From Aestuariivivens marinum (GTDB taxonomy: Bacteria; Bacteroidota; Bacteroidia; Flavobacteriales; Flavobacteriaceae): a DNA stretch of 64,000 bases. The position numbers were made by a program, and so were the translations under genes. Within the stretch, counting starts at the first letter, position 1; every line of letters begins with the position of its first letter. Positions 16,117 to 41,354 of this stretch are shown piece by piece. Below the pieces are notes generated by a model, which ran no database searches, had not been told where the DNA came from, and saw nothing but the letters and a program-made list of their open reading frames with translations. The DNA lies in contig NZ_JAKMCR010000002.1 of NCBI RefSeq assembly GCF_022662175.1, positions 372,001-436,000 on the forward strand, in the 5' to 3' direction.

Positions 16117-16524
16117 ATGAAAAATCAAGTTTTAATTACAGCAGCATTGTTTATAGGTAGTTTTGTTTTATTATCAATGAACATTTCAAAAACTTTTGTT
16201 CAAGACCCATGGGAAGTTCCTGCCAAATATGAAAAAATGGAAAACCCCCATGCATCTAATGCTGATGCGGAAAGAATTGGTCGTACATTATATGCCAAAC
16301 ATTGTAAATCCTGTCATGGTTCCAAAGGAAAGGGAGACGGTCCTAAAGCAGAAGGGCTAGAAACTTCGTGTGGAGACTTTACCTCAAGTTCTTTTAAAGA
16401 GCAAACCGATGGCTCTCTTTACTATAAAATGGTTTTTGGAAGAGATGAGATGCCTGGATTTGATAAAAAAGTTCCAGATGAACAAGATCGTTGGCTCATT
16501 GTTAATTATTTAAGAAGTCTTTAG
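16117..16524 (+). CDS. Secreted monoheme cytochrome c
   Basis: 135 residues. An N-terminal signal/anchor segment (ITAALFIGSFVLLSMNI) precedes a class-I cytochrome c domain with CKSCH (about residues 66-70) and a likely Met axial ligand in DEMPGFDKKVP. It would be a periplasmic one-heme electron carrier. It has its own Crp/Fnr-type box and precedes hemA, which supplies the heme pathway. It is probably co-regulated with the multiheme genes and could shuttle electrons to them. The partner is not shown by sequence. Confidence 0.9.
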   Translation: MKNQVLITAALFIGSFVLLSMNISKTFVQDPWEVPAKYEKMENPHASNADAERIGRTLYAKHCKSCHGSKGKGDGPKAEGLETSCGDFTSSSFKEQTDGSLYYKMVFGRDEMPGFDKKVPDEQDRWLIVNYLRSL

Positions 16525-16606
16525 GCTGTAATCTATTTGAAACTATTTTTAATTAAATATAAACTCAAAAAATTACATCTGTAACTATTAATAAGAATCA
16601 CTATTA

Positions 16607-17836
16607 ATGGATAAATCATTACGCTATATAAGTATCTCACATATAACAGCCAGCGTCACCCAAAGATCACATTACCAATTTTCAAACGAGCAAATAAGTA
16701 GTTTTGTAAATGTCCTGCGAAAAGAATTTAATGATATTTCAGGACTAATGTTATTGGCTACCTGCAATAGAACTGAACTCTATTTTGAGTCTGTTAATAC
16801 CTCTGCCAACTTAATAAGAGATTTTTTATTAACCTTTAAAGGTCATCAAAGTTCAAGTATAGGCAAAACTCTTTTTAAATTAAGTGATGATACAGAAACT
16901 ACTGTTAATCATTTATTGCAAGTATCATCAGGATTGGAATCTTCTGTGTTGGGTGATGCAGAGATCATTCATCAAATTAAAAAAGCCCATCAGTTTACAA
17001 TAGCCCATCATTTACAGGGTTCTTTATTGGAACGTGCTCTACAGGCTGCCTTTAAATGCCATAAGCGCATTAGTAATGAAACCCACTTTAGGGACGGAAC
17101 TACATCGTTGGCCTATAAGTCTTTGAAAATCATAAAAGATTCTTATGAAAAAGCAGCACTAAAGTCAATGAAAATGCTTTTTGTAGGTGCCGGAGATATT
17201 GTTAAGCAATTGTTTAAGTATAACTCTAAATTTAATTTCAAAAATATTTACATCACGAATCGCACTGAGCAAAGAGCGAAGGACTTATCTAAAGATTACC
17301 ATTGTCATGTATTTGACTGGAACAATCTTTTGGAAAACAAACTTGAGGATTTTGATGTCATTATTAGTGGCATAAGCAATTCTGAGAACCTCATCAAGAA
17401 AGTGCCTCAACACAAACAAAAAGTGATGCTCATCGATTTATCTGTGCAGGGCAGTATTGACAGGGCTTTGGCTAATGAAAAGCATATTACATATTATGAC
17501 CTAGATGCCATAGCCGAAGATCTTAAAGAAGTAAAGGAACAACGCTTTTTAGCCATAGATGAGGTCAATAAAATTATTGCCCATGAACTTTCAGAATACT
17601 GCAAGTGGTTACATGAGGCCCCTTTAAGGGAATTACTGGCGGAATATAAAATAAAGGTAGCCAAAAAAGTGAATACCTATTTTGAAGCAGACAAAGAAGA
17701 AGAAAAAATTACAGCTGTAACCAATGAGGTGATGAGAAAATTGATGAGCAAACCAGAAACCTTCATGTCATCATTAAAAATGGATAATGTAATTTCTGAA
17801 CAGGTAACTAAATATTGTATTGAAAACTTAAAATAA
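16607..17836 (+). CDS. hemA: Glutamyl-tRNA reductase
   Basis: 409 residues. Reduces glutamyl-tRNA(Glu) to glutamate-1-semialdehyde with NADPH, the first committed step of C5 heme synthesis. The catalytic Cys is C53 in LLATCNRTELYF. Other signatures are GLESSVLGDAEI (residues ~104-115), the NADPH-binding FVGAGDIVKQ (~193) and the dimerisation helix region RELLAEYKIKVAKKVNTYF near the C-terminus. It follows the monoheme cytochrome gene by 82 bases with no terminator between, so it may be co-transcribed. That would fit the heme demand of the adjacent multiheme cytochromes. Confidence 0.94.
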   Translation: MDKSLRYISISHITASVTQRSHYQFSNEQISSFVNVLRKEFNDISGLMLLATCNRTELYFESVNTSANLIRDFLLTFKGHQSSSIGKTLFKLSDDTETTVNHLLQVSSGLESSVLGDAEIIHQIKKAHQFTIAHHLQGSLLERALQAAFKCHKRISNETHFRDGTTSLAYKSLKIIKDSYEKAALKSMKMLFVGAGDIVKQLFKYNSKFNFKNIYITNRTEQRAKDLSKDYHCHVFDWNNLLENKLEDFDVIISGISNSENLIKKVPQHKQKVMLIDLSVQGSIDRALANEKHITYYDLDAIAEDLKEVKEQRFLAIDEVNKIIAHELSEYCKWLHEAPLRELLAEYKIKVAKKVNTYFEADKEEEKITAVTNEVMRKLMSKPETFMSSLKMDNVISEQVTKYCIENLK

Positions 17837-17915: not shown

Positions 17916-18521
17916 TTAAAACGCAACGGTTCCCCAGGTTAATGGATCGGCTATTAAGGCTTGCCCAGGCCAATAGGTATGTTGTTCCAAAGGATTGCTT
18001 ATTTTAAAAGCCATTTTTATATGCATGCCTGCTGATGGGTTTATGCCTAACTTTAAAAAGCTGATTTTAAATTCAATATTGTCATGACCATCCGTGAAAG
18101 GAAAAGTATTGGCGGCCCAACCCACAGGTTGTGCTGTGCAATCCTCCCAATAATAATACAGCCCAACTGCAGAACAATTACTGTAGGACGAATGAAACCA
18201 GTAGCTCTGGTCACCCCAATTAGGGTCTTCTATGCTGGTGCTAATTAAGACCTCGGCATTATGATTAATGTTATTGGAGTCGGTTAGATTTTTAAAAGCC
18301 ACATATAAGTTCTCCTTGTCATATTTTAATAATACGGCCACCTCATTAGGGGTTTCCTCCTTTAGGGTCAATTCCTTGGCATCCATCCACTCCTGATCAT
18401 CCAGTTCACCATCTATAATTACCGAAACCGTAGTGCTCTCCATAAGCCTTAAGGTATTATCTTGTGCCTGAATGGTAATACAAAAACTCGATATTATAAA
18501 GAAAACAAACAAAGCCCTCAT
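17916..18521 (-). CDS. Secreted CBM9/DOMON-like domain protein
   Basis: 201 residues: signal peptide (ALFVFFIISSFCITIQA) then one beta-sandwich domain of the CBM9-like/DOMON type. Landmarks are VSVIIDGELDDQEWMDA, LYVAFKNLTDS, and the late IEFKISFLKLGI. Related domains bind sugars or heme and occur beside multiheme cytochromes and molybdoenzymes, so a redox-partner role is possible but not shown. It is transcribed divergently from the NHL-dodecaheme operon. The Crp/Fnr-type box at 18624 could in principle serve both directions, but its leftward -7 match (TAAATTGC) is weak. Two Cys around a WEDCTAQP segment may form a disulfide. Confidence 0.65.
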   Translation of the reverse strand: MRALFVFFIISSFCITIQAQDNTLRLMESTTVSVIIDGELDDQEWMDAKELTLKEETPNEVAVLLKYDKENLYVAFKNLTDSNNINHNAEVLISTSIEDPNWGDQSYWFHSSYSNCSAVGLYYYWEDCTAQPVGWAANTFPFTDGHDNIEFKISFLKLGINPSAGMHIKMAFKISNPLEQHTYWPGQALIADPLTWGTVAF

Positions 18522-18666: not shown

Positions 18667-18727
18667 TTTAGTTACCATGTTTACAACCCATTAAAAAAAA
18701 TAGGTATTGGTTTGGATAATAAGTACT

Positions 18728-19747
18728 ATGCATCCGTATAAAATACATAGGTTTTTTTTAATTGTGGGATTGATGCTATTTTACATAAATTCAGTTCAAT
18801 CTCAAGACACAACCTATGTAGAAATCCTAGATTTTAATGCTACCAATTCCGTAAGTTGGGTCAACCAAATTCCATCATTAAAAGAAGATAATAAAAAAAC
18901 TAAAAAAGGCTGGTTCAAACGCTTGCTCCTGGGTAAAAGTGAGATAACCGCCTTGCAAAAACCTGTTGGGGTGATTGGTTTTGACCATGAAGAGGGTATC
19001 ATCTTCGATCAGGGTCATGGTACGATCTTTATCGCTAAAGACAACAAATTAGAAATTCCAAAATTTTTACGAAAAGAAGCGTCCTATTTCCCCTCATTAG
19101 TTGGGGCCTGTATCCTGCCAGACAACCGTATATTATTCACCGATTCCAAACTCAATAAAATTTTTGTTTTTTCAGCAGACCGTAAACAGGTTACAGAACT
19201 TAACAATAGTTTAGAGCTTACCCAACCTACCGGTATTGCCTTTAACAAAAGCAACAATCAAATTTGGGTAATAGAAACAGGGGCACATCGTATATCCATT
19301 TTAGATATTACGGGCAAACGCATAAAAGCTTTTGGACTACGTGGTCATGGTCCAGGTGAATTTAATTATCCAACGTCTATTTGTATAGGTTCTGATGAAA
19401 AAGCGTACATCGTGGATGCTTTAAATTATCGTGTCCAGATTTTTGATACTCATGGCACGTTTATTTTTGAATTTGGTGAAAATGGCAACGGTTCCGGTTT
19501 TTTTGCGAGTCCCAAAGGGATTGCTTCCGATAGTTATGGTAACATCTATGTCGTGGATGCCCTATTTCATACCGTTCAAATTTTTGACAATCGGGGCAAT
19601 TACCTCTATAATTTTGGTGCCCAGGGCCGTGATATCAATCAGTTTTGGATGCCATCGGGCATATTTATAGACAAAAATAATCACATCTATATTGCCGACA
19701 GTTATAACTCCAGAGTACAGGTATTTGATTTAAACTATATGGAATGA
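18728..19747 (+). CDS. Secreted NHL-repeat beta-propeller protein
   Basis: 339 residues from the ATG giving MHPYKIHRFFLIVGL; an upstream TTG would lengthen the signal peptide without merit. After the signal peptide, NHL blades repeat at ~45-residue intervals (IWVIETGAHRISILD, AYIVDALNYRVQIFD, IYVVDALFHTVQIFD, IYIADSYNSRVQVFD), consistent with a six-bladed propeller. No Cys-lipobox, so probably periplasmic or exported. Its stop overlaps the start of the dodecaheme gene (ATGA), implying translational coupling. NHL proteins also accompany multiheme cytochromes in Geobacter-type electron-transfer loci; a scaffold role is inferred. Confidence 0.88.
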   Translation: MHPYKIHRFFLIVGLMLFYINSVQSQDTTYVEILDFNATNSVSWVNQIPSLKEDNKKTKKGWFKRLLLGKSEITALQKPVGVIGFDHEEGIIFDQGHGTIFIAKDNKLEIPKFLRKEASYFPSLVGACILPDNRILFTDSKLNKIFVFSADRKQVTELNNSLELTQPTGIAFNKSNNQIWVIETGAHRISILDITGKRIKAFGLRGHGPGEFNYPTSICIGSDEKAYIVDALNYRVQIFDTHGTFIFEFGENGNGSGFFASPKGIASDSYGNIYVVDALFHTVQIFDNRGNYLYNFGAQGRDINQFWMPSGIFIDKNNHIYIADSYNSRVQVFDLNYME

Positions 19748-21441
19748 AACGATTGATTTTTATAATAATTGGCTTAATTATTTTTCCTTTATACCCCATA
19801 ATGGCACAAGGAAGAGTAGATCAATCACGCCATAATTTATCCGCTTCAGGAAGAGGAAACATTAAATCATTGGACGATTCCAGGGTCTGTATATTTTGCC
19901 ATACGGCCCATTCTGCAAATCCAAAGGCCCCTCTATGGAATCGCAATAAATCTGGAAGAATATATACTTTATATAACAGTTCTACACTGGATGCCAAACC
20001 GGGACAGCCCGATGGCAGTTCCATGTTATGCCTGTCCTGCCATGACGGGACTGTGGCCTTGGGCAATACCTATAAAAACCCCAACAGCATGTCATTTTCC
20101 CATAGCATGACCAAGCGGGGTAATTTGGGTACCGATCTGTCCGACGACCATCCCATATCATTTATTTACGATGCATCTCTGGTGGCTACAGATGGCCAAC
20201 TAAAAGACCCAGTAACTTTAGGTCGTAATGTATTGGATCATAACAGCAAGCTGCAATGTACAGCTTGCCACGATCCGCATAAAGATGTGGATGGCAATTT
20301 TTTAAAGCACAGCAACGAATTTTCTGAGCTCTGCTTTACCTGCCATGACACCAACTATTGGAGTAATAGCAGCCATAATACGGCTACAGCCAACTGGAAC
20401 GGTATTGCTCCAAATCCATGGTCGCATATGGATGCGCCCTATAATTCAGTAATGCAAAATGGCTGTTCCAATTGCCATGATACCCACAATGCCAATGGTA
20501 AAGAACGCCTATTGAAACGGGAAGCCGAAGAAGACAACTGTCTGGATTGTCATAATGGTAACACGGCCAAATCCAATATTCAAGCCGATTTGACTAAACC
20601 CTACCGTCACGATGTGTATGCCTACACCGGTATTCATGACCCTGTGGAGTCCAATTTTAATAAAACCAAGCATGTAGAATGTGTGGATTGCCACAATGCC
20701 CATGCCAGTAATGAATTACCGGCACAGGCCCCTTTTGTAAGTGGTGCCAATGCCAATGTTAAAGGGATTAGCCAGTCGGGTATGGAAATATTTCCTGCTG
20801 TAAACGAATATGAAATCTGTTTTAAATGCCATGCCGATAATCCTGTAACGCCACAGCATACCCTACGGTATTTGGGCTCTGCAAATACACGTTTGGATTT
20901 CGACCCCAACAACGTCTCTATGCATCCGGTTATACAAGAGGGGAAAAACCCTAATCCAAGAGGTCTTATAGAGCCCTATAACGCCAACAGTAAAATTTAT
21001 TGTTCGTCCTGTCATGCCAGTGATGGTAAAAATGCACCTGCAGGACCCCATGGCTCTATTTATCCCAGAATTTTAAAGGCCAACTACAATACAGAGATTA
21101 CGCCGCAATTGGGTAAAAGCTGGCCATCGCTTATACAGGCTAATTTCACCTTGTGTTTTGAGTGTCACGAAATCAATAGTGTAACCAACATCCATACCCA
21201 AATCAGTGAGGGCCATTTTATGGAGACTATAGGCTGTAATGCCTGCCATGACCCCCATGGTTATGAAGGCGGTACCTTAAGTGAAAATGCCTATGGTATT
21301 AATTTCGACCAAAGCGTGATACAGCCCAACCCTATAAATGGCCGTATGATCGACCTCGATCAAAAGAAATGTTTTATGACCTGCCATGACCCCCGTGGTG
21401 TGGTGAATTATACCCATAAAGCCGAAGGCGACGATTACTAA
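19744..21441 (+). CDS. Dodecaheme secreted cytochrome c
   Basis: 565 residues with a signal peptide (LIFIIIGLIIFPLYPIMAQ). Eleven CXXCH motifs start near residues 49, 96, 172, 197, 241, 266, 313, 359, 420, 471 and 498. A twelfth motif is CX3CH (C543 FMT C547 H). Residues 30-201 are clearly homologous to the stand-alone tetraheme protein encoded downstream: same order SRHNLS, CHTAH, APLW, CLSCHDG, DHPISF, CHDPH, and the second heme falls at residue 96 in both. The rest is an octaheme extension. It probably acts at or outside the outer membrane. No lipobox and no T9SS tail, so its location is unresolved. Confidence 0.9.
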   Translation: MKRLIFIIIGLIIFPLYPIMAQGRVDQSRHNLSASGRGNIKSLDDSRVCIFCHTAHSANPKAPLWNRNKSGRIYTLYNSSTLDAKPGQPDGSSMLCLSCHDGTVALGNTYKNPNSMSFSHSMTKRGNLGTDLSDDHPISFIYDASLVATDGQLKDPVTLGRNVLDHNSKLQCTACHDPHKDVDGNFLKHSNEFSELCFTCHDTNYWSNSSHNTATANWNGIAPNPWSHMDAPYNSVMQNGCSNCHDTHNANGKERLLKREAEEDNCLDCHNGNTAKSNIQADLTKPYRHDVYAYTGIHDPVESNFNKTKHVECVDCHNAHASNELPAQAPFVSGANANVKGISQSGMEIFPAVNEYEICFKCHADNPVTPQHTLRYLGSANTRLDFDPNNVSMHPVIQEGKNPNPRGLIEPYNANSKIYCSSCHASDGKNAPAGPHGSIYPRILKANYNTEITPQLGKSWPSLIQANFTLCFECHEINSVTNIHTQISEGHFMETIGCNACHDPHGYEGGTLSENAYGINFDQSVIQPNPINGRMIDLDQKKCFMTCHDPRGVVNYTHKAEGDDY

Positions 21442-22200
21442 CGTCATGGCGAGCCTTTCGACTGCGCTCAAGACAAGCTACACGAAGCCATCCCATGAAC
21501 AGAACCGTCATTGTGAGCCCTTGTAAAGGGCGTGGCAATCTCATAAACAGGAACTCCAGACAAACAGACTGCCACGTCGCCATTGCATTAGGCTCCTCGC
21601 AGTGACCAAATGAAAACGTCATTGTGAGCCCTTATAGAGGGCGTGACAATCTCATGAAAAGGAACTCCACACAAACAGACTGCCACGTCGCCATTGCATT
21701 AGGCTCCTCGCAGTGACCAAATGAAAACGTCATTGTGAGCCCTTATAGAGGGCGTGACAATCCCTTGAACAGAAACGTCATTGTGAGCCCTTATAGAGGG
21801 CGTGACAATCCCTTGAACAGAAACGTCATTGCGAGCCCTTGAAAAGGGCGTGACAATCCCATGAACAGGAACTCCAGACAAAAAGACTGCCACGTCGCCA
21901 TTGCCTTGGGCTCCTCGCAGTGACGTCATTGTGAGCCCTTGTAAAGGGCGTGACAATCCCTTGAACAGAAACGTCATTGTGAGCCCTTGTAAAGGGCGTG
22001 ACAATCCCATGAACAGGAACTCCAAACAAACAGACTGCCACGTCGCCATTGCCTTGGGCTCCTCGCAGTGAAGTCATCACGAGGCACGTAGTAACGAAGT
22101 GATCTCCTTATAGTTAGTTCGGTACTCCCAATTAGGAGACTGCTTCGCTCACTGCGCTCGCTCGCAGTGACGTCATGGCAAGCACTTAACAATCTCAAGA
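21442..22200. repeat. Array of ~10 palindromic intergenic repeats
   Basis: Units begin CGTCATTGTGAGCCCTT, fold with AAGGGCGTGACAAT into a hairpin, and come in two forms. Short 48-bp units start at 21728, 21776 and 21924. Long units of ~100-111 bp start at 21506, 21617, 21824 and 21972 and add an arm ending GCTCCTCGCAGTGAC. Divergent copies start at 21442, 22072 and 22171. The array fills the gap after the dodecaheme gene and could act as a terminator or mRNA-stabilising block. It resembles the REP-like 'GTCATTGCGAG' elements scattered in many bacterial genomes. Reading frames inside it are spurious. Confidence 0.9.
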
Positions 22201-22643
22201 GAAAACCTAACGAATCCCCCTACATTTTTTACACCGTTTTAAAGTATAATGTATTGATAATGAATATAATAAAAGACGTTTTTATCCGATTTAATTTCAC
22301 AAAAAATTAGGAGCCAACTAGAAGAATTGAACAATTTTAAGGCTTATTTAAATTCATTATAAACAACATAATACATTGATTTACAGCATTTTACAAAATT
22401 GCTAAAAACAGGTGTTTTTCACAAAAAAAAAGTGTCGCTCTAAGGGCAAACAACAGTGCTTGTATATTACTGTTTTTCAATGTTTTACAGGTGTTTTAAA
22501 AAAAGTGTCGCTAAAAATAGCGATAAGCAGGAAACATGATTTTTGTCATGTTTTTTTGTGGGTATGCTGGTTATATTCATAACAATTAATTAACATTTTT
22601 TTAATAAATACATGTATATATAAAAAACTTAAATTTAAGTATT
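22201..22643. other. Long leader/promoter region of the tetraheme gene
   Basis: No coding sequence. It contains a direct repeat: ACAGGTGTTTT followed by A-tract and GTGTCGCT at 22408-22439 and again at 22487-22512. It also has a small hairpin CGCTA / TAGCG at 22510-22523, and then the Crp/Fnr box and -7 element listed separately. Confidence 0.6.
22537..22579 (+). promoter_or_regulatory. Crp/Fnr-type box and -7 element, tetraheme cytochrome gene
   Basis: Dyad TGATTTTTGTCA (22537-22548), extended to ACATGA-N6-TCATGT. After 23 bases comes TATATTCA (22572-22579). The ATG lies 64 bases further on. Confidence 0.65.
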
Positions 22644-23297
22644 ATGAAAACAACAAAATCTTTATTTTTAACACTGGCACTTGCATTAACAGGTACATTT
22701 GCATTTGCTCAAAACGGTACTATTACTGGATCTGCTCACGATTTTAAAGCTGAAGGTTGGTCTGGAGGTGAAATATGTAAAGTTTGCCATACCCCTCACA
22801 ACGCTCTTCATAGTGATCAAGGTGCACCATTATGGGACCATTTGGTTACAACTGAAACTTTTACTCCTTATGCAGATACAGGAACTTTAGATGCAACTGT
22901 AGGAGTTCCAACTGGTACATCAAAATTATGTTTATCATGTCATGATGGCGTAACGAATGTTGATGCATTTGGTGGAGATGCAGGTACTGGTAATATTTCT
23001 ACACTTTTTACAGGTACTACTGCAAGTTTAGGGGTAAACTTAACAACACACCATCCTATTTCTTTAACATATAATGCGACTTTAGCGACAACTGATGGTG
23101 GTTTGCATAACCCAACAACTACAGATAGTGGAATAACTGCACAAATTGATGATGATATGCTTTTCGGAACAGGAAATGATCAATTGGAATGTGCGTCTTG
23201 CCATGATGTTCATAATAACGGACCATCAGGAGTTAGTTTTCTGTTAGTTAAAACTAATGCTGATAGTGCATTATGTTTAACCTGTCATAACAAATAA
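22644..23297 (+). CDS. Secreted tetraheme cytochrome c
   Basis: 217 residues: signal peptide (LFLTLALALTGTFAFAQ) and four CXXCH motifs at residues 45-49, 96-100, 183-187 and 211-215, with further His (SAHDF, CHTPH, THHPIS, CHDVH) able to serve as second axial ligands. Small, abundant-looking and independently transcribed: own promoter box, strong terminator and a codon choice more uniform (AT-rich third positions) than the neighbouring genes. Size and heme number recall tetraheme extracellular cytochromes such as OmcE, which polymerise into filaments, but no alignment was possible. It shares its whole fold with the first 200 residues of the dodecaheme protein upstream. Confidence 0.9.
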   Translation: MKTTKSLFLTLALALTGTFAFAQNGTITGSAHDFKAEGWSGGEICKVCHTPHNALHSDQGAPLWDHLVTTETFTPYADTGTLDATVGVPTGTSKLCLSCHDGVTNVDAFGGDAGTGNISTLFTGTTASLGVNLTTHHPISLTYNATLATTDGGLHNPTTTDSGITAQIDDDMLFGTGNDQLECASCHDVHNNGPSGVSFLLVKTNADSALCLTCHNK

Positions 23298-23493: not shown

Positions 23494-24582
23494 ATGAAGA
23501 CTCCTATTATCTTTTTCAAATATATTATAATTGGCATAAGTATGTTTTTGGTAGTATTTTCTTGTGCACCAAAAATATCCAGTACTAAAGTAACACCCCA
23601 AAACAAACCTATTTTTTATCCTAAGTATGCAGATACTGCTCGTATACAATTTTTAAGAGCCTTTAGTAAATCTACAGATATTACACCCAAACAATCGGCA
23701 TTCAAAGCATCTATATTGGGAGAGGAAATGGTTTTTGAAATTGGAAAACCTTATGGGATTAGCATGGCAAAAGGCAAAATATATATTTGCGATTTAAATA
23801 GTAATAAAATAGTCATTTTAGACATTGAAAACAAAACATTTAACTCAATACAACCCACACTAAAAAAAGGTTTTGCACAGGCTATTAATATGTTTGTTGA
23901 CAGTGAAGGCTTCATCTATTTGGCCAACCCTTTACAACGTGTAATCTCTGTATATGATGTCAATTTTAATTATATTACAGAATTTGGAAAAAAAGTAAAT
24001 TTTAGACCTGTTGATGTTGCTGTTACAAATGATAAAATTTATGTGGTTGACATTCAAAATAACCGCGTCAACATCTTTGATAAAACCACCAAAGCCTTTT
24101 TAAGCTATTTTCCCAATAGTGTGGTCGGCAATGACGACTGGCTATATTCAGCTAGCGCAATAAGTATTTCAAACAATAATATATATATTACTGATACTGG
24201 TGATTATTCACTTAAAATCTATTCCCTAAAGGGTGAGTTTATAAAAAAAATGGGGAATATAGGCGACGGTTTAGGTCAGTTTTCAAGGCCCAAAGGCAAT
24301 GCGGTTGATCAAGACGACAATGTGTATGTATTGGATGCCGCCTTTGAAAATGCCCAGCTGTTTAATAAAAACGGCCAGTTATTGATGTTTTTTGGTGGGC
24401 CCTATAAAGGGCCAGGGGATATGTACCTGCCTGCCCAAATTACTATTGATTACGACAATATCCACTATTTTGAACATTTGGTGGATAAACGCTATAAACT
24501 ATTGTATTTAATACTGGTCACCAACCAGTATGGTCCAGATAAAGTCTCAGTCTATGGCAGAATAGAACTTAAGGAACAATGA
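23494..24582 (+). CDS. NHL-repeat beta-propeller lipoprotein
   Basis: 362 residues. The lipobox FSCAP near residue 27 marks a lipoprotein. NHL-type blades follow (PYGISMAKGKIYICDLNSNK, IYVVDIQNNRVNIFD, IYITDTGDYSLKIYS, VYVLDAAFENAQLFN). First gene of a four-gene rightward operon (NHL lipoprotein, nonaheme lipoprotein, beta-barrel, undecaheme cytochrome), downstream of its own Crp/Fnr-type box. It may cap or scaffold the outer-membrane cytochrome conduit. Propellers bind proteins and other ligands without defined chemistry, so the role remains inferred. Confidence 0.88.
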   Translation: MKTPIIFFKYIIIGISMFLVVFSCAPKISSTKVTPQNKPIFYPKYADTARIQFLRAFSKSTDITPKQSAFKASILGEEMVFEIGKPYGISMAKGKIYICDLNSNKIVILDIENKTFNSIQPTLKKGFAQAINMFVDSEGFIYLANPLQRVISVYDVNFNYITEFGKKVNFRPVDVAVTNDKIYVVDIQNNRVNIFDKTTKAFLSYFPNSVVGNDDWLYSASAISISNNNIYITDTGDYSLKIYSLKGEFIKKMGNIGDGLGQFSRPKGNAVDQDDNVYVLDAAFENAQLFNKNGQLLMFFGGPYKGPGDMYLPAQITIDYDNIHYFEHLVDKRYKLLYLILVTNQYGPDKVSVYGRIELKEQ

Positions 24583-33300: not shown

Positions 33301-33526
33301 CAAAGGCGAATATATTTTTAATGTGGCTGCTGTATTTGGTTTTGGCTCTGTATTAATGACCTTTTTCGGAGTAAATTATTATTTTACCAAAGGCATGCAT
33401 TCTTACGCAAGCGGCGATACACCCGTATTTCCTGTCTGGGCATGGATTACCATTTTAACCATCGTTGTTTTTATTGCCGCAGCAGGATTAAAGGAAAGAT
33501 ATTACAGAAAACAGTTTCCGGAATAA
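30347..33526 (+). CDS. ccsBA: Cytochrome c biogenesis protein CcsBA (System II heme lyase)
   Basis: 1059 residues. Exports heme and attaches it to CXXCH cysteines outside the inner membrane. The N-terminal half is ResB/CcsB-like: TM helices near residues 10-100, then a large periplasmic part with GYRFFQSSYDQDEKGT and a closing TM near 430. A linker rich in His (QQAHQNHQHEASPY) follows. The C-terminal half is CcsA-like with GMRWYLSGHAPWSNGYE and the WWD heme-handling segment WGRYWGWDAKETW (residues 953-965). Monocistronic, sharing a regulatory box with the OB-fold pair and lying inside the multiheme region, so it is probably the dedicated synthetase for these cytochromes, including their CX3CH and CX4CH sites. 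Confidence 0.94.
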   Translation: MKKLLKIIYSPRTTLGLLVIFAIALGVATFIENSYDTITAKLLIYNAKWFEVLMLLMIFNFIGSVKRYQLLTWKRLSGFIFHTAFIIIIIGAGITRYIGFEGMMHIREGASSNFIYSSQNYLNIRASDGSKDYNLDKEMNLGMITDNAFEVKVETKQKGDISIRYKDFIRNAKESYVEAEQGFTMLELTLNVEGHKDDIKLKDGEVQYVHNFPIAFNNNSRPDGLVITGNADQLFINYAGDIKTSRMPDMEEGLISKDSLGEFTKMKLYEPLGTGIAVVLTKVLRNTAITYVEAEDNEKRPNALVLDVEHNGKTQEINVLGGSGYMENYVNVPLEDLSLKLAYGAKKITLPFSLKLNKFELERYSGSMSPSSYASEVTLIDPNKGITKDHRIFMNNVLDYGGYRFFQSSYDQDEKGTVLSVNHDFWGTMITYLGYALMIIGFIWTLFNKNSRYWSLMLMIRQTRARRKALSFIGIFFIVSGSLFAQQAHQNHQHEASPYAVSETHADQFGELVVQNYEGRFEPIHTLAIDVMHKISRKDKFNIPERGELSLMQVFLDIPLNVEFWKNQDIIYIREQSVSDLIGINGKYASFIDFFDEKGQYKLATFAETAFRKADAERNKFDKELIKLNERLEIFMMTYQGNMLDIFPVQNSENNKWVSWEDPLARQPLTGSIRIINDDLQLPELNYTSIMRTYFLELINASKTANYTRANKILGYIKSIQRQDGVNSAIPSISKIKKEISYNKSNIFNNLKKVYSLLSVLLLLLTFIDNLRSKSNKLLTIILNISISILALAFLYHTYGMGMRWYLSGHAPWSNGYEALILVSWSSLLAGFCFMRYSKITLAATALLAFFTLMTAGHSNYDPQLTNLQPVLKSYWLIIHVATLTISYGFLGLGFILGLFNMGLYLSKTTKNWNRVSLMIKELTYINEMNLTIGLLLATVGTFLGGVWANESWGRYWGWDAKETWALVITIVYTIILHMRLAPKIKGEYIFNVAAVFGFGSVLMTFFGVNYYFTKGMHSYASGDTPVFPVWAWITILTIVVFIAAAGLKERYYRKQFPE

Positions 33527-33811: not shown

Positions 33812-36800
33812 TTACCAACAGGTCTTACCATTACCGCAATGGCCGGCAGAACCTTCAGCCGAATAAGTAATTGTATTTACCATGGTTCCGCCATTACTAT
33901 ACCAGAGTGGTCTAAAGTAACTCTCACCATCAACATGCCAAGAAGTACCATAAGTTCCTTGTAAATTTGGAGATGCATCACTACCGTTATTAGCATTGTG
34001 ACACCAGAAACATTGCACATTGCTCCAGCCGTTACCTGAAAGATTTTGACTATTAGAAATATGAGCACCTCTTGTATGACTATCAAATGGAGGCACATCA
34101 CCCGTTCCTGTAACAGGACCAGCTACAGTATTAGTAATGGTATAATCTGGTTCCATATTACCAGCGGCACCATGACAACTATTGCAAGCTGTTAATGTTC
34201 CAACATTCCAAACTGGAGTGGTAATATAAGTTGCTGTTTGTGGGCCAATTGTAGCACTCCATTCAAATGCTCCTGTAGGATTCGTGTCAGGATCCCAAGG
34301 ATTAGTAGCGAAATCAGCTTCCTGACCCCGATGGGAAGTTCTACCATTACTATGGCAATAAATATTATCACATGTTTTATCTCCATTAAATACTGGAGTA
34401 TTTCCGTCCTGACCATTTCTTGTAGCCATTCCATTTGGATCAAAGACAATATTTATGGTCCCATTTGGATGGGTTCCGCCTTCGTTGGCCCCTCCACTAC
34501 CATGTCCGAAATGGCATGTGTTACAAGCATAGCCATACCTATCCTTATGTGTGACATGAACAGCTGATGTAAATGTGGGTGCATTGGTTTCATGGCATGA
34601 GTTACAACCACCGCCAGATGGCGAGAAATTGGAGCTGTGCGGATGACAAACGGTACAGTTTTGACCAGGTATACCCGCACCCTGACTGGTATGATTTTGA
34701 TCGCTGGCAGTACCGGTGTTATTGAAATGCGTGGTTGTTGTATGGCATACTTCACAAACACCATCATAGGTTGCATTGCCATCAGCAAAAGAATTAGTAC
34801 TCGTTTCGGCTGTAAAGATTACCGGTTTATCACCACTATTAGGTGTTGTTATGGTATTTCGTACCATGTAAATATTGCCTTTATTAGTATTATGTGGCTG
34901 GTGGCAATCCAGACAATCCATACCGTTGTGTGTACCATATGTATGACAATCTGTACATAATGAAGCGTCGTTGGTAGTTCTTAAAAGATTTCCATTTGCT
35001 GCCAATCCTAAAGATCCCGTCACGTCGTGTACACCATGACAACTTGAACACTCTACATTACCGCTTACCAATTGGGTGTTTGATGGTGCCGCATTGAATC
35101 GTGAATCCCCTCCATTATAAGCAACACCAACAGGGTGGGATCCTCTATTGGTAGAGGGGGAATCATTGTATATCCCCACATTTCTAGCAGAGTGACAGTC
35201 CTTACACATGGCATCTCCCACATTACTGGCTCTCAAATGCGGTGAGGCTGCTGAAGTATTGTGCTGGTCGTGGCATGTAGAACAAATAATTTGACCTGAA
35301 ATAACCCGCATGGCCATTTGCGAATTACTCGGTACATTGGTTTCCTTTGAGGCATTTACCGCATTGACATTCCATGCATGGGAATCGCCCGTAGCAGGAA
35401 AAGTATTGATATTATCTGCCGCCGTAAATGGTTTTGCACTGGCCGCACCGGTAGAAGTATGACAGCTCTGACATAAATTATCATTTCCTGCGATACTGGT
35501 CAAACTCATACCTGGAGCACTATGGGTAATATGGCATGAGTTACAGTTATAATAGGTATGATTTGTTGCGATAGAGATAACTACAGTCTTAGAACCTGCT
35601 GCACTGGTACCACAAGTATTTGTAGCAGTAACAGTGATATCAGCAGCAGCTTGAGCTGGTCCCGTATCAACAATGATCTGGCTTGTTCCCTGTCCGGCAG
35701 TAATCGTAAATCCGGAAGGCACCACCCATGTGAATGATGTTGCTCCACTAGCTGAGGCCGAATATTTAAAACCAGTACTGTTTTGCGGGACTGTGGCGTT
35801 ACCAGAAATACTGGGTGTTGGTGGAATATCATTAACATCAATGATTATTGAATACCCGATACTGGAGTAGCCGGTAGTTGAGTTCTTTACCTTCAAGGTC
35901 CCATAATATTTGGCTTTTGGAGCTGTTGCAGGAACTGTTATTGGTATTGGACTTACAGGTAAAGTGGCATCAACAACATTTGTAAAACCTGCGGCCAATG
36001 CCGAACTTGTAAACGTAATACTATATAGATCAGGATCATCGGTCGTTGCCGTATAAGGTAAATTTGCCGTTGTGGTTCCTTTACAGATTTGTGAAATGGT
36101 TCCTAATGTAATGGTCGGTGGACTTGCGGCAGTTGAAGAGGTTACTGCAAGTATCGAAGCTGTACTGGTACCGCAAACATTAGAGGCAGTAACAGTAATA
36201 TTTCCATTTTCTCCATTAGCTCCAGAAGTCACAGAAATGGAAGTCGTTCCTTGTCCCGAGTTAATCGTCCATCCTGAAGGTACTGTCCAGGTATAAGTAG
36301 TTGCATAGGTAACAGCCGTAATACTATATGTGTAACCTGATGTATTGGGCGTCGTATCCGGTTGCCCTGAAATGGCTCCCGGTGTATCTGGTACTGGCGT
36401 CACCAATACTCTAACCGTGTTTGAGGCTTGATCTTGTGTGGCATTTGTCTGCCCACAGCCATTATCTGAAGCGTATCCCACACAGAAATAATAACGATTA
36501 CCAGCTGCAGCACTTGAATTATCAGGGGTATAAGTATCGGAAGTGGCACCAGACAATAGGGTTGCGGAACCTATATTATTGCTGTTGCTGGTATTATAAT
36601 ACCATTGATATTGTACGGTGGGTGTACCTGACCCACCAGAAGTACTCACGGTGGCTGTTAATGTGTTAGCAGGGTCGCCTACACACAGATCTTGAAAAGC
36701 AGTTGGAGCAACAGCGGTTGATATTGGGCAATCAATTGCTTCGGAAGTTACAGCTAAAGTTGTAGTCGGGCTATTGCCACAACTATTTCCCGCATAAACC

Positions 36801-38635
36801 GTGACATCACCATTTTGACCCGCAGTTCCGGAAGTCACCGATATCGAGTTGGTATTCTGCCCTGAATTAATGGTCCATCCCGCAGGGACATTCCAGGTAT
36901 AAAAAGTTGCATTGGGAACTTCGGTAACACTGTAAACTAACCCACTTGTACTTTCAGGGACAGTTGTTGAACCACTGATAGCTCCAGGTTGTGCAGGAGC
37001 TGGAGGATTTACGGTTACCTGAACGGCATTGGAAGCCAGGGTTTGGTCGGCATTGGTTTGTCCGCAACCATTGTCCGTGGCATAACCCACACAAAAATAC
37101 CATCGATCACCAAGGGTTGATGCATCGGTTGGGGGTGTATAAGTAGCCGCAGTTGCCCCGGATATTAGTGTTGCCGTTCCTACAGTATTGCTGTTACTTG
37201 AATTGTAGTACCATTGGTATAAAAGCGTTGGTGTTCCTGAACCTCCCGAAGTCGTGACGTTGGCTGTTAATTGACTTGCGACATCATCCTGACATAGGGT
37301 CTGAGCACCCGATGGACTTACCGAGGTGGATTGAGGACAATTCGATGCCACCGTTATACTCACTGCCAGTGAGGATGCAGGGCTCGTCCCGCAGCTGTTT
37401 TCGGCCGTGACCGTGATGTCACCATCCTGACCTTCAGTTCCGGAAGTAACGGATATTGACGTGGTCCCCTGTCCGGAATCTATGGTCCATCCCGTTGGTA
37501 CGGTCCAGTTATAAGTGGTCGCATCAGGAACCGCAGAAATGCTGTAATTTAAACCCGATGTGGAAGGATCAACTGGTGTTGGTCCGGAAATGGCCCCGGG
37601 TTGCGAAGGTGCAGGCGGATTTACCGTAACCTGCACTGCATTGGATGCCAAAGATTGGTCTGCATTGGTTTGCGAACAATTGTTATCCGTAGCATAACCC
37701 ACACAAAAATACCAGCGGTCACCAATTTCGGCGGCTGTGGTCAACGGTGAATATGTTGCACTGATTGCACCTGCAATCAAGGTCGCTCCGGAAACCGTAT
37801 TGCTGTTGGTTGTATTGTAATACCATTGGTACTGAATAGTTGGCGTTCCAGAACCTCCAGAAGTTGTTACATTTGCTGTAAGCAGACCTGAAGCGTCTCC
37901 TTGACAAAGGGTTTGTGTAGCGGTTGGAATTACTGAAGTTGATGCAGGACAATTTGAAGCTGCAACAGTATAAGTTACAGTAACATATCCATTAGCTCCA
38001 GATCCAGGAGTGGTGTTTTTTGTACCACCACCACCACCACCATAAATTGAACCATTTCCACCAGTTTTCGCTCCTTCACCACCGTCACCACCATTATTAG
38101 CAGTTCCGGTACCTCCAGTTGTTCCAGTAGCATTACCTCCAGGTCCAGTTGAGCCCGCACCGCCGCCGCCACCGCCGCCATTTCCACCCTGAGCACTTGA
38201 ACCAGCTGCTCCGTTTCCTCCATTATATGTGACATCTCCTGTTCCACCACTCCCACCACTAGCACCTGCTATTCCAGTAGCACCTACTCCTCCAGGTGCA
38301 TTTACAGTTCCTCCATCAAAACTTGACGATCCACCGCTGTTACCCGGAGCTCCCCCTGCACCTACTATTACAGTATAACTACCAGAAACACCAGATAAAA
38401 CACTTCTTGCATAAGAACCGCCACCGCCGCCACCGCCATTAGGTTGAGTTCCTCCACCTCCAGCTCCCCAGCATTCCACTGTTATTTCAGTGACTCCGGG
38501 GGGAACAGTAAATGTGCCATCTGAGGTAAATGTTTCTGTGGTTTGCGCATAAGACATTTGAACTAAAACAAATAAGAAAGTGAATAATCCAAGGTTAAAT
38601 TTCAACAGTTTTATATAGTGCTTATTTGTTTTCAT
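33812..38635 (-). CDS. Giant multidomain multiheme cytochrome c (14 heme motifs) with Gly-rich and PKD/Ig-like domains
   Basis: 1607 residues. Signal peptide (1-30), a glycine-rich beta domain (~38-225, TFTVPPGVTEITVECWGAGG then long Gly runs), three ~200-residue repeats (~228-835), each a Cys-bearing Ig-like part (QYQWYYNT, YFCVGYA) plus a PKD-like part (NWTVPTGWTI, TVTAENSCG). A divergent fourth module follows, then a cytochrome region (~1030-1607). That region has 13 CXXCH and one CX4CH (C1422 DNIY C1427 H). The CDNIYCHSNG context matches the Geobacter CxxxxCH/CXXCH domain group (TIGR01904 type). It ends oddly with CGNGKTCW. No T9SS tail is seen. Four bases after the NHL/T9SS gene. Likely a cell-surface adhesin-like electron carrier. 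Confidence 0.88.
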   Translation of the reverse strand: MKTNKHYIKLLKFNLGLFTFLFVLVQMSYAQTTETFTSDGTFTVPPGVTEITVECWGAGGGGTQPNGGGGGGGSYARSVLSGVSGSYTVIVGAGGAPGNSGGSSSFDGGTVNAPGGVGATGIAGASGGSGGTGDVTYNGGNGAAGSSAQGGNGGGGGGGAGSTGPGGNATGTTGGTGTANNGGDGGEGAKTGGNGSIYGGGGGGTKNTTPGSGANGYVTVTYTVAASNCPASTSVIPTATQTLCQGDASGLLTANVTTSGGSGTPTIQYQWYYNTTNSNTVSGATLIAGAISATYSPLTTAAEIGDRWYFCVGYATDNNCSQTNADQSLASNAVQVTVNPPAPSQPGAISGPTPVDPSTSGLNYSISAVPDATTYNWTVPTGWTIDSGQGTTSISVTSGTEGQDGDITVTAENSCGTSPASSLAVSITVASNCPQSTSVSPSGAQTLCQDDVASQLTANVTTSGGSGTPTLLYQWYYNSSNSNTVGTATLISGATAATYTPPTDASTLGDRWYFCVGYATDNGCGQTNADQTLASNAVQVTVNPPAPAQPGAISGSTTVPESTSGLVYSVTEVPNATFYTWNVPAGWTINSGQNTNSISVTSGTAGQNGDVTVYAGNSCGNSPTTTLAVTSEAIDCPISTAVAPTAFQDLCVGDPANTLTATVSTSGGSGTPTVQYQWYYNTSNSNNIGSATLLSGATSDTYTPDNSSAAAGNRYYFCVGYASDNGCGQTNATQDQASNTVRVLVTPVPDTPGAISGQPDTTPNTSGYTYSITAVTYATTYTWTVPSGWTINSGQGTTSISVTSGANGENGNITVTASNVCGTSTASILAVTSSTAASPPTITLGTISQICKGTTTANLPYTATTDDPDLYSITFTSSALAAGFTNVVDATLPVSPIPITVPATAPKAKYYGTLKVKNSTTGYSSIGYSIIIDVNDIPPTPSISGNATVPQNSTGFKYSASASGATSFTWVVPSGFTITAGQGTSQIIVDTGPAQAAADITVTATNTCGTSAAGSKTVVISIATNHTYYNCNSCHITHSAPGMSLTSIAGNDNLCQSCHTSTGAASAKPFTAADNINTFPATGDSHAWNVNAVNASKETNVPSNSQMAMRVISGQIICSTCHDQHNTSAASPHLRASNVGDAMCKDCHSARNVGIYNDSPSTNRGSHPVGVAYNGGDSRFNAAPSNTQLVSGNVECSSCHGVHDVTGSLGLAANGNLLRTTNDASLCTDCHTYGTHNGMDCLDCHQPHNTNKGNIYMVRNTITTPNSGDKPVIFTAETSTNSFADGNATYDGVCEVCHTTTTHFNNTGTASDQNHTSQGAGIPGQNCTVCHPHSSNFSPSGGGCNSCHETNAPTFTSAVHVTHKDRYGYACNTCHFGHGSGGANEGGTHPNGTINIVFDPNGMATRNGQDGNTPVFNGDKTCDNIYCHSNGRTSHRGQEADFATNPWDPDTNPTGAFEWSATIGPQTATYITTPVWNVGTLTACNSCHGAAGNMEPDYTITNTVAGPVTGTGDVPPFDSHTRGAHISNSQNLSGNGWSNVQCFWCHNANNGSDASPNLQGTYGTSWHVDGESYFRPLWYSNGGTMVNTITYSAEGSAGHCGNGKTCW
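36130..37951 (-). repeat. Three tandem ~600-bp coding repeats in the giant cytochrome gene
   Basis: Modules at roughly 37345-37951, 36739-37345 and 36130-36739 encode near-identical Ig-like plus PKD-like units (shared CP.ST start, TSGGSGTP, QTNA.Q, PGAISG, SGQ.T.SISVTSG). Such repeats can expand or contract by recombination, and may be collapsed in assemblies. Confidence 0.8.
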
Positions 38636-38639
38636 ATGT

Positions 38640-41354
38640 TCAATCTTTTAAGACCAGCTTTTCCTGTTCTGCAAAATTTCCAGCATTGATATATACAATA
38701 TAAATTCCCTTGTCAAAACTTTCAATACTGACAGGTATATACATACTGCCATCATATTGTGTTAAATAATTTGGATCGAAGACCTCTGCATAAATACTTT
38801 GTCCGGAAGTACTGTTAATGAGTATACTGATGTTGGAAGTTATTGGTATCAATGGAGTAATTTTGATAGTAAATTGTCCATAGGATGGGTTGGGATAAAT
38901 CATAACAACATCGGTCTCTATATTGCTGCCTACATTTACTACTTTACTCACCTGGAGCGTACCACAATTATCATTTATGGCCGTATAAATGACCGTATAA
39001 TTCCCTTTTTTACTATAGGTATGGATGGGGTTCTCCTCCGTGGAAGTGGTTTTATCTCCAAATTCCCAATAATGCGCATCGGCTTCAGTGGCGTTGCTGA
39101 CAAACTGCACTTCAAACCGATTGACATCATAGTAAAAGTCAGAATTTACAAATGAATGTAACGTTACATTAACATAATCGGTAGCTGTACAGCCCTCAGC
39201 ATTACTCACCGTAACACTATAAGTTCCTTCTGAGGTAACTTCAAGTGTTCTGCCGGTGCTTCCGTCGTTCCACAGGTAACTATCGAATAGTCCGGCATCC
39301 AGTGTATAGGTCGAGTCTCCTTCACAAATAGCAATATCAGGCCCTAAATCAAGTGCGGGCTCCGGTGCTTCCGTTACCTCAACTGAACCTGAAAATGTCC
39401 CTGGATTATTTAAACCATCTGTCAATGAGCTTAACTCATAAATCCCAGGAGTTGATGTTATTAATTGATAAAGGGGTTCATTCGTTGTAATTTCTCCAAC
39501 GGAATTGCCATCAATGGTATAACCAAATGTCCAAGGTGGTGTGCCAGTAAATGAAATTGGAATTGTTGCAGTTTTACCCTTACAAATAGTTTGGGTGGCG
39601 GTTTCAATGGTCGCTGTTGCTGGTTCAAGAATATTGCCGAAAACAATTTCAGGATAACCCTTACTTATGTTACTTGAACAATTAACATCGGTTACTTGAA
39701 CAACCTCATAGGTACCTTCCATCGATGCCGACAAAAGATAGGGATTCTGATCGGTTGTGATGGAGACCGGGTTTTTGTCATCAATTTCATAAGTAAAGGT
39801 CCAGGGTCCTGTCCCGGTAAAGGCGATGGTTAACTCCGTCGACTCTCCTTCACGAATAATGATCCTGTCATTGCCATTGGTAATTTCTGCGGTAGGTAAT
39901 GGATTTACAACCACCTCTACCAGGCCATTAATTACCGAACCACTGCAACCATCATCATTGACGGAGGTTATTTCATATAATCCGGAAATATCTGGAATAA
40001 GGGAATAGGTATATTCTGTTGTAACTACCTCAATTGGAGCTTGGTTGTCAATAGTATACGTAAATTTAAACGGAGGGGTTCCGGTTAATGTAATAGCAAT
40101 ACCCAAACCATCATTGAAACAGGTATCTAAGTTGGTATCACTTACTGCAACTGTAGGCGCACTTGACTGGGTTACCATAGCCCCCCCGGTAAAGCAATCT
40201 GTAGAGGCTGCACTACCATCGGTTAAGGCAGTAATTTCATACCAACCAGGACCAGCTGTCAGCATATACGGATTTTCACTCGTTGTGATCTGAGAGGGGT
40301 TTTCTCCGTCTATGGTATATGTAAAAGTCCAGGGAGCTATTCCTGTAAAGTGAACTTCCAATTCAGCTGAATCCGAACAGGTAGTGATATCTGCTGATTT
40401 AATAATTGCTGTTGGTGTTGGCATGTTGATTTCAAACACATCAAGGCTCGCCTTATCCATGGATGACACGATTAATTTATGGTCTGTAGTGAACAGAATA
40501 TCTACAGGAAGATCAAACTCCCCGGAACCATAACCCCATTGACCTATATTCGTTAAAAAATTTCCGGATTCATCATACACACTTATACGCGCCAGATAAG
40601 GATCTATAGCGTAAATATTTCCACATGGACCAACAGCAATTCCTTGAATTCTGTGATTTTGCCCTTCTAACCTACCAAAACATCCAAATTGATTTAGCAA
40701 GGTTCCGTTTAAATCAAATGTATATATTGAGGTATTGGGTCCATAATTTCGTACTGCCCACCCCCCATTTTGGTTACAATAGGTATCTGTTTCAGGCCCT
40801 ATACCGCCATGTTCTGAAACCACTAACCTATTATTCTTTTCATCGAAAGCAATTCCCGTTGGAAATGTGAAATTTGGATCTGAAAATTGAAGTACGGTGT
40901 TACCAGACACATTCAGCCCTAATACTTCCTTAGCTTCACTGTCTGTAACATACAATATGTTTTTAAATCCAAAAGTCATTGAATTGGGTAATTTTGTGCC
41001 TGAATGGAACAAAGATTTACTGCCATCATATTTTAAATGATAAATATTTCCAGTAATCTCATCCCCAACAAAGAGTTGTCCTTTTTTATTTACGGCAATT
41101 GAAATAGGATTAAAATCGGTAGCTATTATGCTTTTATATACTCCACTACCATCATAAATAATAATACTTTTTTTGTCAACATCTATAACATAGATGTAAT
41201 CATTAGAATCAATAGCCATCCTGCCGGGTGCATCAATACCATAGCTAATTAGTTGTGAAGGGACATAATCATCTTGAGTGTTTTGTGAATTTAAAGACAG
41301 TACAAAACACATAAAAAGATTACAAAATAGAATATGTTTTACAATGGAAAGCAT
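38640..41354 (-). CDS. Secreted NHL-propeller protein with Ig/PKD domains and T9SS sorting domain
   Basis: 904 residues. Signal peptide (residues 1-24), an NHL propeller (~30-310: IDSNDYIYVIDVDKKSIIIY, GNIYAIDPYLARISVYDESG), five or so short Ig-like repeats (APWTFTYTIDG, PPFKFTYTIDN, GPWTFTYEIDD, PPWTFGYTIDG), a PKD domain (AHYWEFGDKTTSTEENPIHT) and a C-terminal type A sorting domain (IYPNPSYGQFTIKI to KLVLKD). It should be exported by the type IX system and fixed to the cell surface. First gene of the operon with the giant cytochrome, under its own Crp/Fnr-type box. It may be the surface receptor or scaffold for that cytochrome. Confidence 0.9.
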   Translation of the reverse strand: MLSIVKHILFCNLFMCFVLSLNSQNTQDDYVPSQLISYGIDAPGRMAIDSNDYIYVIDVDKKSIIIYDGSGVYKSIIATDFNPISIAVNKKGQLFVGDEITGNIYHLKYDGSKSLFHSGTKLPNSMTFGFKNILYVTDSEAKEVLGLNVSGNTVLQFSDPNFTFPTGIAFDEKNNRLVVSEHGGIGPETDTYCNQNGGWAVRNYGPNTSIYTFDLNGTLLNQFGCFGRLEGQNHRIQGIAVGPCGNIYAIDPYLARISVYDESGNFLTNIGQWGYGSGEFDLPVDILFTTDHKLIVSSMDKASLDVFEINMPTPTAIIKSADITTCSDSAELEVHFTGIAPWTFTYTIDGENPSQITTSENPYMLTAGPGWYEITALTDGSAASTDCFTGGAMVTQSSAPTVAVSDTNLDTCFNDGLGIAITLTGTPPFKFTYTIDNQAPIEVVTTEYTYSLIPDISGLYEITSVNDDGCSGSVINGLVEVVVNPLPTAEITNGNDRIIIREGESTELTIAFTGTGPWTFTYEIDDKNPVSITTDQNPYLLSASMEGTYEVVQVTDVNCSSNISKGYPEIVFGNILEPATATIETATQTICKGKTATIPISFTGTPPWTFGYTIDGNSVGEITTNEPLYQLITSTPGIYELSSLTDGLNNPGTFSGSVEVTEAPEPALDLGPDIAICEGDSTYTLDAGLFDSYLWNDGSTGRTLEVTSEGTYSVTVSNAEGCTATDYVNVTLHSFVNSDFYYDVNRFEVQFVSNATEADAHYWEFGDKTTSTEENPIHTYSKKGNYTVIYTAINDNCGTLQVSKVVNVGSNIETDVVMIYPNPSYGQFTIKITPLIPITSNISILINSTSGQSIYAEVFDPNYLTQYDGSMYIPVSIESFDKGIYIVYINAGNFAEQEKLVLKD

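Follow-up and report, generated by a model that had tools for sequence, protein, structure and literature searches.

A candidate extracellular electron transfer locus of Aestuariivivens marinum with an OmcE-type tetraheme cytochrome and a predicted outer-membrane conduit

We analysed a stretch of 64,000 nt, here called the window, from Aestuariivivens marinum (Flavobacteriaceae), a member of a marine-sediment genus. The locus in question is a block at positions 16117-41354. It contains 51 heme motifs, counted as CxxCH plus Cx3CH/Cx4CH, in six proteins (1, 12, 4, 9, 11 and 14). We consider it probable that the block is a complete-looking set for extracellular electron transfer (EET), in which an OmcE-type nanowire is combined with a conduit across the outer membrane. 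Direct support comes from gene content, conservation, homology to OmcE and to PDB chain 6r2q_A, and NrfD/Fe-S genes in the genome. The features of the block, including one protein with a sorting tail of the type IX secretion system (T9SS), are as follows.

16117..16524, + strand: monoheme cytochrome c, likely periplasmic shuttle (Pfam Cytochrom_C, 3.9e-11)
16607..17836, + strand: second, divergent glutamyl-tRNA reductase, HemA-like (Pfam GlutR_N, 1e-32)
17916..18521, - strand: small secreted protein (no Pfam match)
18707..19747, + strand: NHL1, secreted NHL propeller (Pfam NHL, 2.1e-29)
19744..21441, + strand: cyt12, dodecaheme; OmcE-like module at residues ~17-202, then an 8-heme part
21442..22210, no strand: array of hairpin-like repeats, left border of the variable cassette
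22644..23297, + strand: OmcE4, secreted tetraheme of 217 aa, homologue of the OmcE nanowire subunit
23494..24582, + strand: NHL2, lipoprotein NHL propeller (Pfam NHL, 4.5e-13; lipobox-like FSC in the sequence)
24641..25507, + strand: cyt9, nonaheme lipoprotein cytochrome (likelier ATG start at 24653, read from the sequence)
25504..27462, + strand: outer-membrane barrel, 652 aa (AlphaFold2 model, 30 long strands)
27486..28538, + strand: cyt11, soluble undecaheme, MtrA-related (profile match to 6r2q_A)
28589..28617, no strand: terminator-like hairpin with T run, 3' of cyt11 (read from the sequence)
28734..29447, - strand: OB1, secreted (homologues near the locus in many relatives)
29466..30200, - strand: OB2, lipoprotein, paralogue of OB1 (PF01336, E 0.017)
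30347..33526, + strand: CcsBA cytochrome c synthase, 1059 aa (PF01578, 3.5e-35)
33812..38635, - strand: cyt14, glycine-rich/PKD multiheme of 1607 aa with 14 hemes (conserved, Cys-containing C-terminus)
38640..41354, - strand: NHL3, T9SS-sorted NHL/Ig-like protein (TIGR04183, 24.1 bits, cut-off 23)

These counts agree with an initial annotation of the window, which had described five multiheme cytochromes (12, 4, 9, 11 and 14 motifs) and one monoheme protein. No heme motif was found in the other window open reading frames (ORFs) listed (at least 90 aa, overlapping shorter ones dropped). In shuffled copies of the five multiheme proteins CxxCH occurred 0.01-0.10 times on average and at most twice. 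The proposed heme lyase was confirmed as CcsBA, and the three NHL proteins were likewise recovered, the third with a T9SS tail just above the cut-off. For the nonaheme, its description as a lipoprotein cytochrome is backed by an N-terminal Cys that is invariant in 5/5 homologues. The two proteins annotated as paired OB-fold proteins do form a pair; the OB-fold label is weak, with one of the two matching PF01336.

The tetraheme is, by sequence, a full-length homologue of OmcE, the Geobacter nanowire subunit. In a phmmer search of PDB sequences the whole mature protein matched 9yuq (2.3e-20) and 7tfs (6.5e-17). A profile built from five relatives gave 5.7e-34 and 5.4e-33, respectively. We take 7tfs to be the OmcE filament of Geobacter; 9yuq is annotated 'putative multiheme cytochrome c' and has 16 chains. 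Homology to both is full-length, and four CxxCH motifs and a signal peptide are shared. In contrast to OmcE, which comes from another phylum, the tetraheme here is only a putative filament subunit, and in the window it is encoded with a dodecaheme that itself bears an OmcE-like module. The genome has no second OmcE-type tetraheme, and the next best match is the dodecaheme. The initial annotation had listed the parts of the locus correctly; it missed both the OmcE homology of the tetraheme and the module of the dodecaheme.

To the window protein we aligned 67 relatives with exactly four motifs, taken from 86 profile matches in the loci of the wider survey described below. Hence, the CxxCH count in these 67 follows from selection, while other His residues were not selected for. 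The presumed distal residues H32, H137 and H190 are present in 68/68 sequences and H52 in 62/68; H66 is also common (57/63). Having four distal His residues kept for four hemes fits what an OmcE-type subunit with bis-His ligation throughout would need. A His from the neighbouring subunit is reported to ligate one of the OmcE hemes, across the filament interface (PMC12307469). Our guess from the sequence is that H32, which lies ahead of all hemes, could be this cross-subunit ligand.

Residues 17-202 of the dodecaheme matched 7tfs with E 8.9e-28 (phmmer), a stronger match than that of the tetraheme. We aligned 75 rows, comprising the window protein and 74 of 79 selected homologues (L065, L075, L076, L089 and L094 were truncated, long or divergent, and were left out; L numbers denote loci of relatives). 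Each of the 12 proximal and 15 other His residues is missing from at most one row. For the eight His residues of the module and for H211, just after its fourth heme, the count is 74-75 of 75. These patterns suggest that the dodecaheme may join the filament to the cell through its OmcE-like module. The module would be the terminal 'subunit' of the filament and would give H30 to it. H211, from the protein's own 8-heme part, would then replace the next subunit.

Lipoprotein nonaheme, barrel and undecaheme are encoded in succession. The undecaheme profile matched 6r2q_A (chain A of the Mtr complex) with E 9.5e-19. We take this chain, listed under another molecule name, to be MtrA, and on this sequence evidence the undecaheme is MtrA-related. 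Its score against TIGR03508 (DmsE/MtrA) was 99.9 bits, below the cut-off of 192.2. The predicted barrel held up: it has no Pfam or NCBIfam match, and its AlphaFold2 model is a barrel of 30 long strands with a small insert at ~385-440 and a predicted local distance difference test (pLDDT) of 91.7. An alignment of 59 members has 18 positions with no or almost no variation, and 9 of them fall in residues 380-448. None of the 59 matched an informative Pfam family or MtrB/PioB. Against PDB sequences the best single-sequence hit was a hydrolase (E 0.031, taken as chance) and the best profile hit had E 0.66. Two cytochromes exceeded the cut-off of 30 for the Pfam MtrC/MtrF II/IV domain PF22113, namely the dodecaheme (45.0) and the nonaheme (31.6). 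The nonaheme scored 28.8 bits against NCBIfam OmcA/MtrC TIGR03507 (cut-off 209.3). The PF22113 matches perhaps arise from shared CxxCH spacing; as sequence evidence they lean towards Mtr-type surface cytochromes.

The initial annotation placed quinol oxidation elsewhere in the genome. Consistent with this, in two relatives, G025 and G232, genes for NrfD and for an Fe-S protein are found upstream of NHL1 at a distance of 4-6 kb, in divergent orientation, with further cytochrome genes in between. Their Fe-S protein has a twin-arginine-like N-terminus, judged by eye. In the window's genome an NrfD homologue lies on another contig, C5 (1126343-1127632, 66% identical), and a second is found at C5:1122651-1123862 (50% identical). 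The genes beside them encode Fe-S proteins, a monoheme cytochrome, a 6-heme cytochrome and a DUF5777 barrel. The monoheme cytochrome of the locus is 49% identical to the monoheme of this module and 50-53% identical to two monohemes of G025. By sequence, the NrfD/Fe-S genes on C5 are probably the missing quinol module, which would serve this locus by oxidising quinol.

Within the family the barrel occurs in 5/397 genomes and within the genus in 3/4; a search of the phylum found it in 4/395 genomes, two of them weak matches. The A. marinum genome is included in the family and phylum counts. Gene order agrees among the five family genomes. Wherever all four cytochromes are present (the window and three others) the heme counts are 12/4/9/11, and a fifth, partial locus has 4/9/11. 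Searching 84,980 species genomes with the dodecaheme returned at least 558 candidate stretches at E 1e-3 or better, which may include other multiheme proteins. For the wider survey we took the best 80 of these, a sample biased to high dodecaheme similarity. NHL1 lies directly 5' of the dodecaheme in 78/80 loci. Flanks of at least 8 kb on both sides were available for 38 of the 80. Of these 38 loci, 33, spread over ten phyla, also encode NHL1, a tetraheme of the OmcE type, NHL2 and the barrel. Phylum names are those of record titles, mostly metagenome bins, and not all are reliable. The full set was found in Bacteroidota (18/20), Calditrichota (3/3), Nitrospirota (2/2), Pseudomonadota (1/2), Planctomycetota (1/2), in 1/1 each of Chlorobiota, Ignavibacteriota, Myxococcota, Verrucomicrobiota and Thermodesulfobacteriota, and in 3/4 unnamed records. 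Loci L021, L025, L054, L086 and L091 lacked it. Co-occurrence of the genes in other genomes had been set beforehand as a test of the initial annotation, and it was found. The occurrence in ten phyla rules out a system confined to flavobacteria. The claim of a distinct Bacteroidota system also failed, given this recurrence and an overlap with published Uet parts.

This distribution bears on whether the tetraheme forms filaments. It might instead stay a monomer, with the lipoprotein and the dodecaheme passing electrons directly to acceptors. What ties the tetraheme to filaments is homology, and porin-cytochrome conduits such as MtrCAB work without nanowires. However, distantly related phyla retain the tetraheme next to the barrel (34/38 and 35/38 loci, respectively), and its four strongly kept distal His residues look as if all OmcE ligands were retained. 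We think a permanent monomer improbable and favour a nanowire.

The sequences support a porin-cytochrome-type EET locus unlike standard MtrCAB, as had been proposed. In a part-by-part comparison Uet comes closest among described systems, followed by OetABI and MtrCAB. Uet is described as comprising an extracellular tetraheme UetA, a barrel UetC, NHL proteins UetHI and an 11-12-heme UetJ (PMC10734462). Matched by description, not sequence, the tetraheme, barrel, NHL1/NHL2 and dodecaheme encoded together here correspond to these. Unlike Uet, the locus has no match to the peptidylprolyl isomerase UetB among 15 locus proteins scanned with Pfam, and none to the triheme UetDEG, there being no triheme among the listed window ORFs. 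It adds the nonaheme lipoprotein, the MtrA-related undecaheme, CcsBA, the PKD multiheme and the T9SS-sorted NHL protein. Since two listed Uet parts were not found and the likeness is one of description, we do not file the locus as Uet. OetABI of syntrophic sulfate reducers is reported to consist of a periplasmic cytochrome, a barrel and a lipoprotein cytochrome, with nanowire-type cytochromes alongside (PMC10553843). In composition, the only aspect compared, the locus resembles this arrangement, but the filament types given there are OmcX, OmcS-like and Apc2a (PMC10553843). With MtrCAB the locus shares a barrel and two cytochromes, an undecaheme related to 6r2q_A, and PF22113 matches over cut-off in the dodecaheme and nonaheme. 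It differs in that none of the 59 barrels matches MtrB/PioB in Pfam, NHL proteins and a tetraheme are added, and no protein exceeds the NCBIfam cut-offs for the OmcA/MtrC or DmsE families. As the DmsE/MtrA score is below its cut-off and the other features are indecisive, we do not file the locus as MtrCAB either. By analogy, we expect it to function as a porin-cytochrome conduit combined with an OmcE nanowire.

The likeness to Uet raises the possibility that electrons flow inwards, with minerals, electrodes or partner cells as their source; such a role has been proposed for Uet in Tenderia and for iron oxidisers. We regard such uptake as unlikely. The Flavobacteriaceae are mainly heterotrophic, and NrfD/Fe-S modules suit quinol oxidation as well as reduction. 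The argument for uptake is that Uet is reported from cathode-oxidising Tenderiales (Ca. Tenderia electrophaga) and from iron oxidisers (Gallionella) (PMC10734462; PMC13386937). We retain outward transfer as the favoured direction.

The middle of the locus varies more than its surroundings. NHL1, dodecaheme, undecaheme, OB1, OB2, CcsBA, cyt14 and NHL3 of the window are 68-88% identical to their counterparts in A. sediminicola. The values fall to 51% for the tetraheme, 44% for NHL2, 41% for the nonaheme and 31% for the barrel. We call these four adjacent genes the cassette, and NHL1, dodecaheme and undecaheme the frame. Mean identities were computed for five close loci (window, G025, L017, L018 and L019) and for 49 loci with all seven genes. 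In the close loci the tetraheme, NHL2, nonaheme and barrel average 46, 45, 40 and 29%, and in the 49 loci 53, 44, 36 and 29%. For the frame, the close and wide values are 72 vs 53 (dodecaheme), 70 vs 38 (undecaheme) and 61 vs 41% (NHL1). Hence, the tetraheme is more diverse among close relatives than across the whole set.

Trees of 21 loci, which have long branches, tell different histories for the two parts. The frame unites the three Aestuariivivens (100/100). In the cassette tree the window groups with G025 (100/99), and A. sediminicola groups with L018 (100/100). The genus clade is rejected by the cassette data in the approximately unbiased (AU) test (136 log units, p 1.6e-89). The frame data reject window+G025 (p 0.002) and L017+L018 (p 0.0005). 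Among quick single-gene trees, the genus clade was recovered with NHL1 (98) and undecaheme (100). Pairing of the window with G025 was recovered with the barrel (99) and NHL2 (95), weakly with the nonaheme (25) and not with the tetraheme. The dodecaheme tree gave no clear placement. Taken from these trees, the conflict looks as if the four cassette genes had been exchanged together; fast evolution and exchange probably both contribute.

We also correlated pairwise divergence over 31 Bacteroidota/Chlorobiota loci. Tetraheme, NHL2 and barrel correlate with one another at 0.65-0.78. Correlation of barrel and undecaheme is only 0.33. These values would suit a different division of labour, in which barrel, NHL2 and nonaheme form an export or anchoring machine for the filament subunit and a separate complex serves as the conduit. 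One account describes the secretion route of cytochrome wires as an open question (PMC12307469). However, the MtrA-related undecaheme is encoded directly after the barrel and the lipoprotein cytochrome directly before it. Moreover, the nonaheme correlates weakly with tetraheme, NHL2 and barrel (0.23-0.52), while the dodecaheme does so almost as well as they do with each other (0.62-0.67). We therefore doubt that the barrel is an export machine and keep it as part of the conduit. The nonaheme and dodecaheme values also call for caution about the cassette as one unit.

The array of repeats at 21442-22210 has a GC content of 50.5% in a window of 36%. Its 14-mer GTCATTGYGAGCCC has 7 copies in the genome, all within 21442..22210. 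Of ten relatives searched for a shorter repeat core, only L018 has it, with sites between dodecaheme and tetraheme and between undecaheme and OB1. A link of the array to cassette exchange is thus suggestive only. In Geobacter conduits the outward-facing parts are described as often replaced (PMC6148476). We tentatively propose that the exposed half of the nanowire forms a hypervariable cassette open to exchange, whose genes are swapped and diversify together between a constant dodecaheme and a constant undecaheme, possibly via recombination at the repeat array; this is a conjecture we hold with less than even confidence. The pressure would possibly come from phages, partner cells or minerals touching the wire. 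Base composition was rejected as proof of import. In the window the cassette has 34.4% GC, against 41.0 and 40.2% on either side, and in A. sediminicola the GC content at third codon positions is 23-30 for the four cassette genes and 39-56 for their neighbours. The signal is not general, as in the window only the tetraheme is low.

For localisation, polymerisation, order and outward direction of transfer, acceptor, the role of NrfD and the adaptor role of the dodecaheme, we infer the following scheme. Menaquinol would be oxidised by the NrfD/Fe-S inner-membrane module encoded elsewhere in the genome. The monoheme cytochrome would carry electrons to the MtrA-related undecaheme, which would feed the 30-strand barrel, and the nonaheme lipoprotein would receive them on the other side. 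The dodecaheme, via its OmcE-like module, would pass them to the tetraheme filament, from which they would reach an acceptor outside (a mineral, an electrode or a cell). Additional contacts at the surface would be made by the 14-heme PKD protein and the T9SS-sorted propeller. CcsBA would attach heme, and the second HemA-like protein would contribute to heme supply.

Several observations weigh against this scheme. Polymerisation of the tetraheme is drawn from OmcE homology, which alone is no proof, and what OmcE itself does in Geobacter electron transfer is reported to be disputed (PMC13194489). By fold, the modelled barrel is not clearly closest to MtrB. Foldseek returned generic barrels, with MtrB (6r2q_B) at rank 32 among the best 50 rows, though with the highest query template modelling (TM) score (0.41). 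A VIA fold search also gave generic barrels, and MtrB was absent from the best 50 rows. The dodecaheme model has a pLDDT of 73.3, mostly <60 in the OmcE-like part, and was left out of the fold searches. The lipoproteins have no acidic surface-export signal of the Bacteroidota type (judged by eye). Hence, the nonaheme may face either side. Finally, heme counts vary in the wider set. Of 55 nonaheme homologues over 60 bits, 36 have 5 hemes and 15 have 9, and undecaheme homologues have 7 to 24. Dodecaheme homologues have 12 in 76/80.

The remaining genes of the block include its own copies of heme biosynthesis and attachment functions, as another HemA-like gene (26% identical) and two more CcsBA genes (42% and 38%) are present in the genome. 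The HemA-like gene adjoins the locus also in L017, L018 and L019, and in G025 additional genes related to CcsBA lie next to the locus. Homologues of the small secreted protein at 17916..18521, presumably CBM9/DOMON-like by eye, lie near the locus in L011, L014 (= L017), L018, L019 and L025. OB1 we take to be NrfJ/OB-fold-like. SprA of the T9SS is encoded in the genome. The C-terminus of cyt14 has no recognised T9SS domain. Its tail has two Cys residues, reading GHCGNGKTCW here and in A. sediminicola and GHCGASSSCWQ in G025 (3 homologues compared), and may be an unrecognised sorting signal. The G025 counterpart of this PKD cytochrome (L012 3578-15099) has 26 heme motifs in 1549 aa.

Upstream of the block, 4806-15180 encodes a metal efflux set with a CusB-type adaptor, an OEP, an RND pump and a heavy-metal P-type ATPase. 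Downstream, 42128-46116 encodes a Crp-type regulator, two YeeE-type sulfur-transport half proteins, a TauE permease and an MBL-rhodanese protein. These sulfur genes are probably not part of the locus, as other genes follow in A. sediminicola and G025. A tRNA-Arg gene lies beside the right end of the block (41971-42045). A genomic island at this tRNA has no support, as the stretches scanned from six relatives contain no tRNA. Rfam STnc430 scored 49.1 bits (cut-off 47) at 28580-28738; this match, which overlaps the terminator-like hairpin, probably arose by chance.

Our literature search, which was incomplete, found no paper combining Flavobacteriaceae with OmcE, and parts may be in print. Nor did it find one joining porin-cytochrome, Bacteroidetes, extracellular electron transfer and NHL; priority is not certain. 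An OmcE-type nanowire gene set can now be placed in Flavobacteriaceae isolates (Aestuariivivens) and, by record title, in ten phyla. Together with a candidate conduit and quinol module, this makes nanowire formation testable outside Geobacter. The pattern of the cassette gives a hint of the proteins that need to match each other, and asks what drives variation of the nanowire surface. How a cytochrome filament plugs into the cell is listed among the open questions (PMC12307469). The dodecaheme suggests a concrete answer, in which the filament may connect to the cell through an OmcE-like module.

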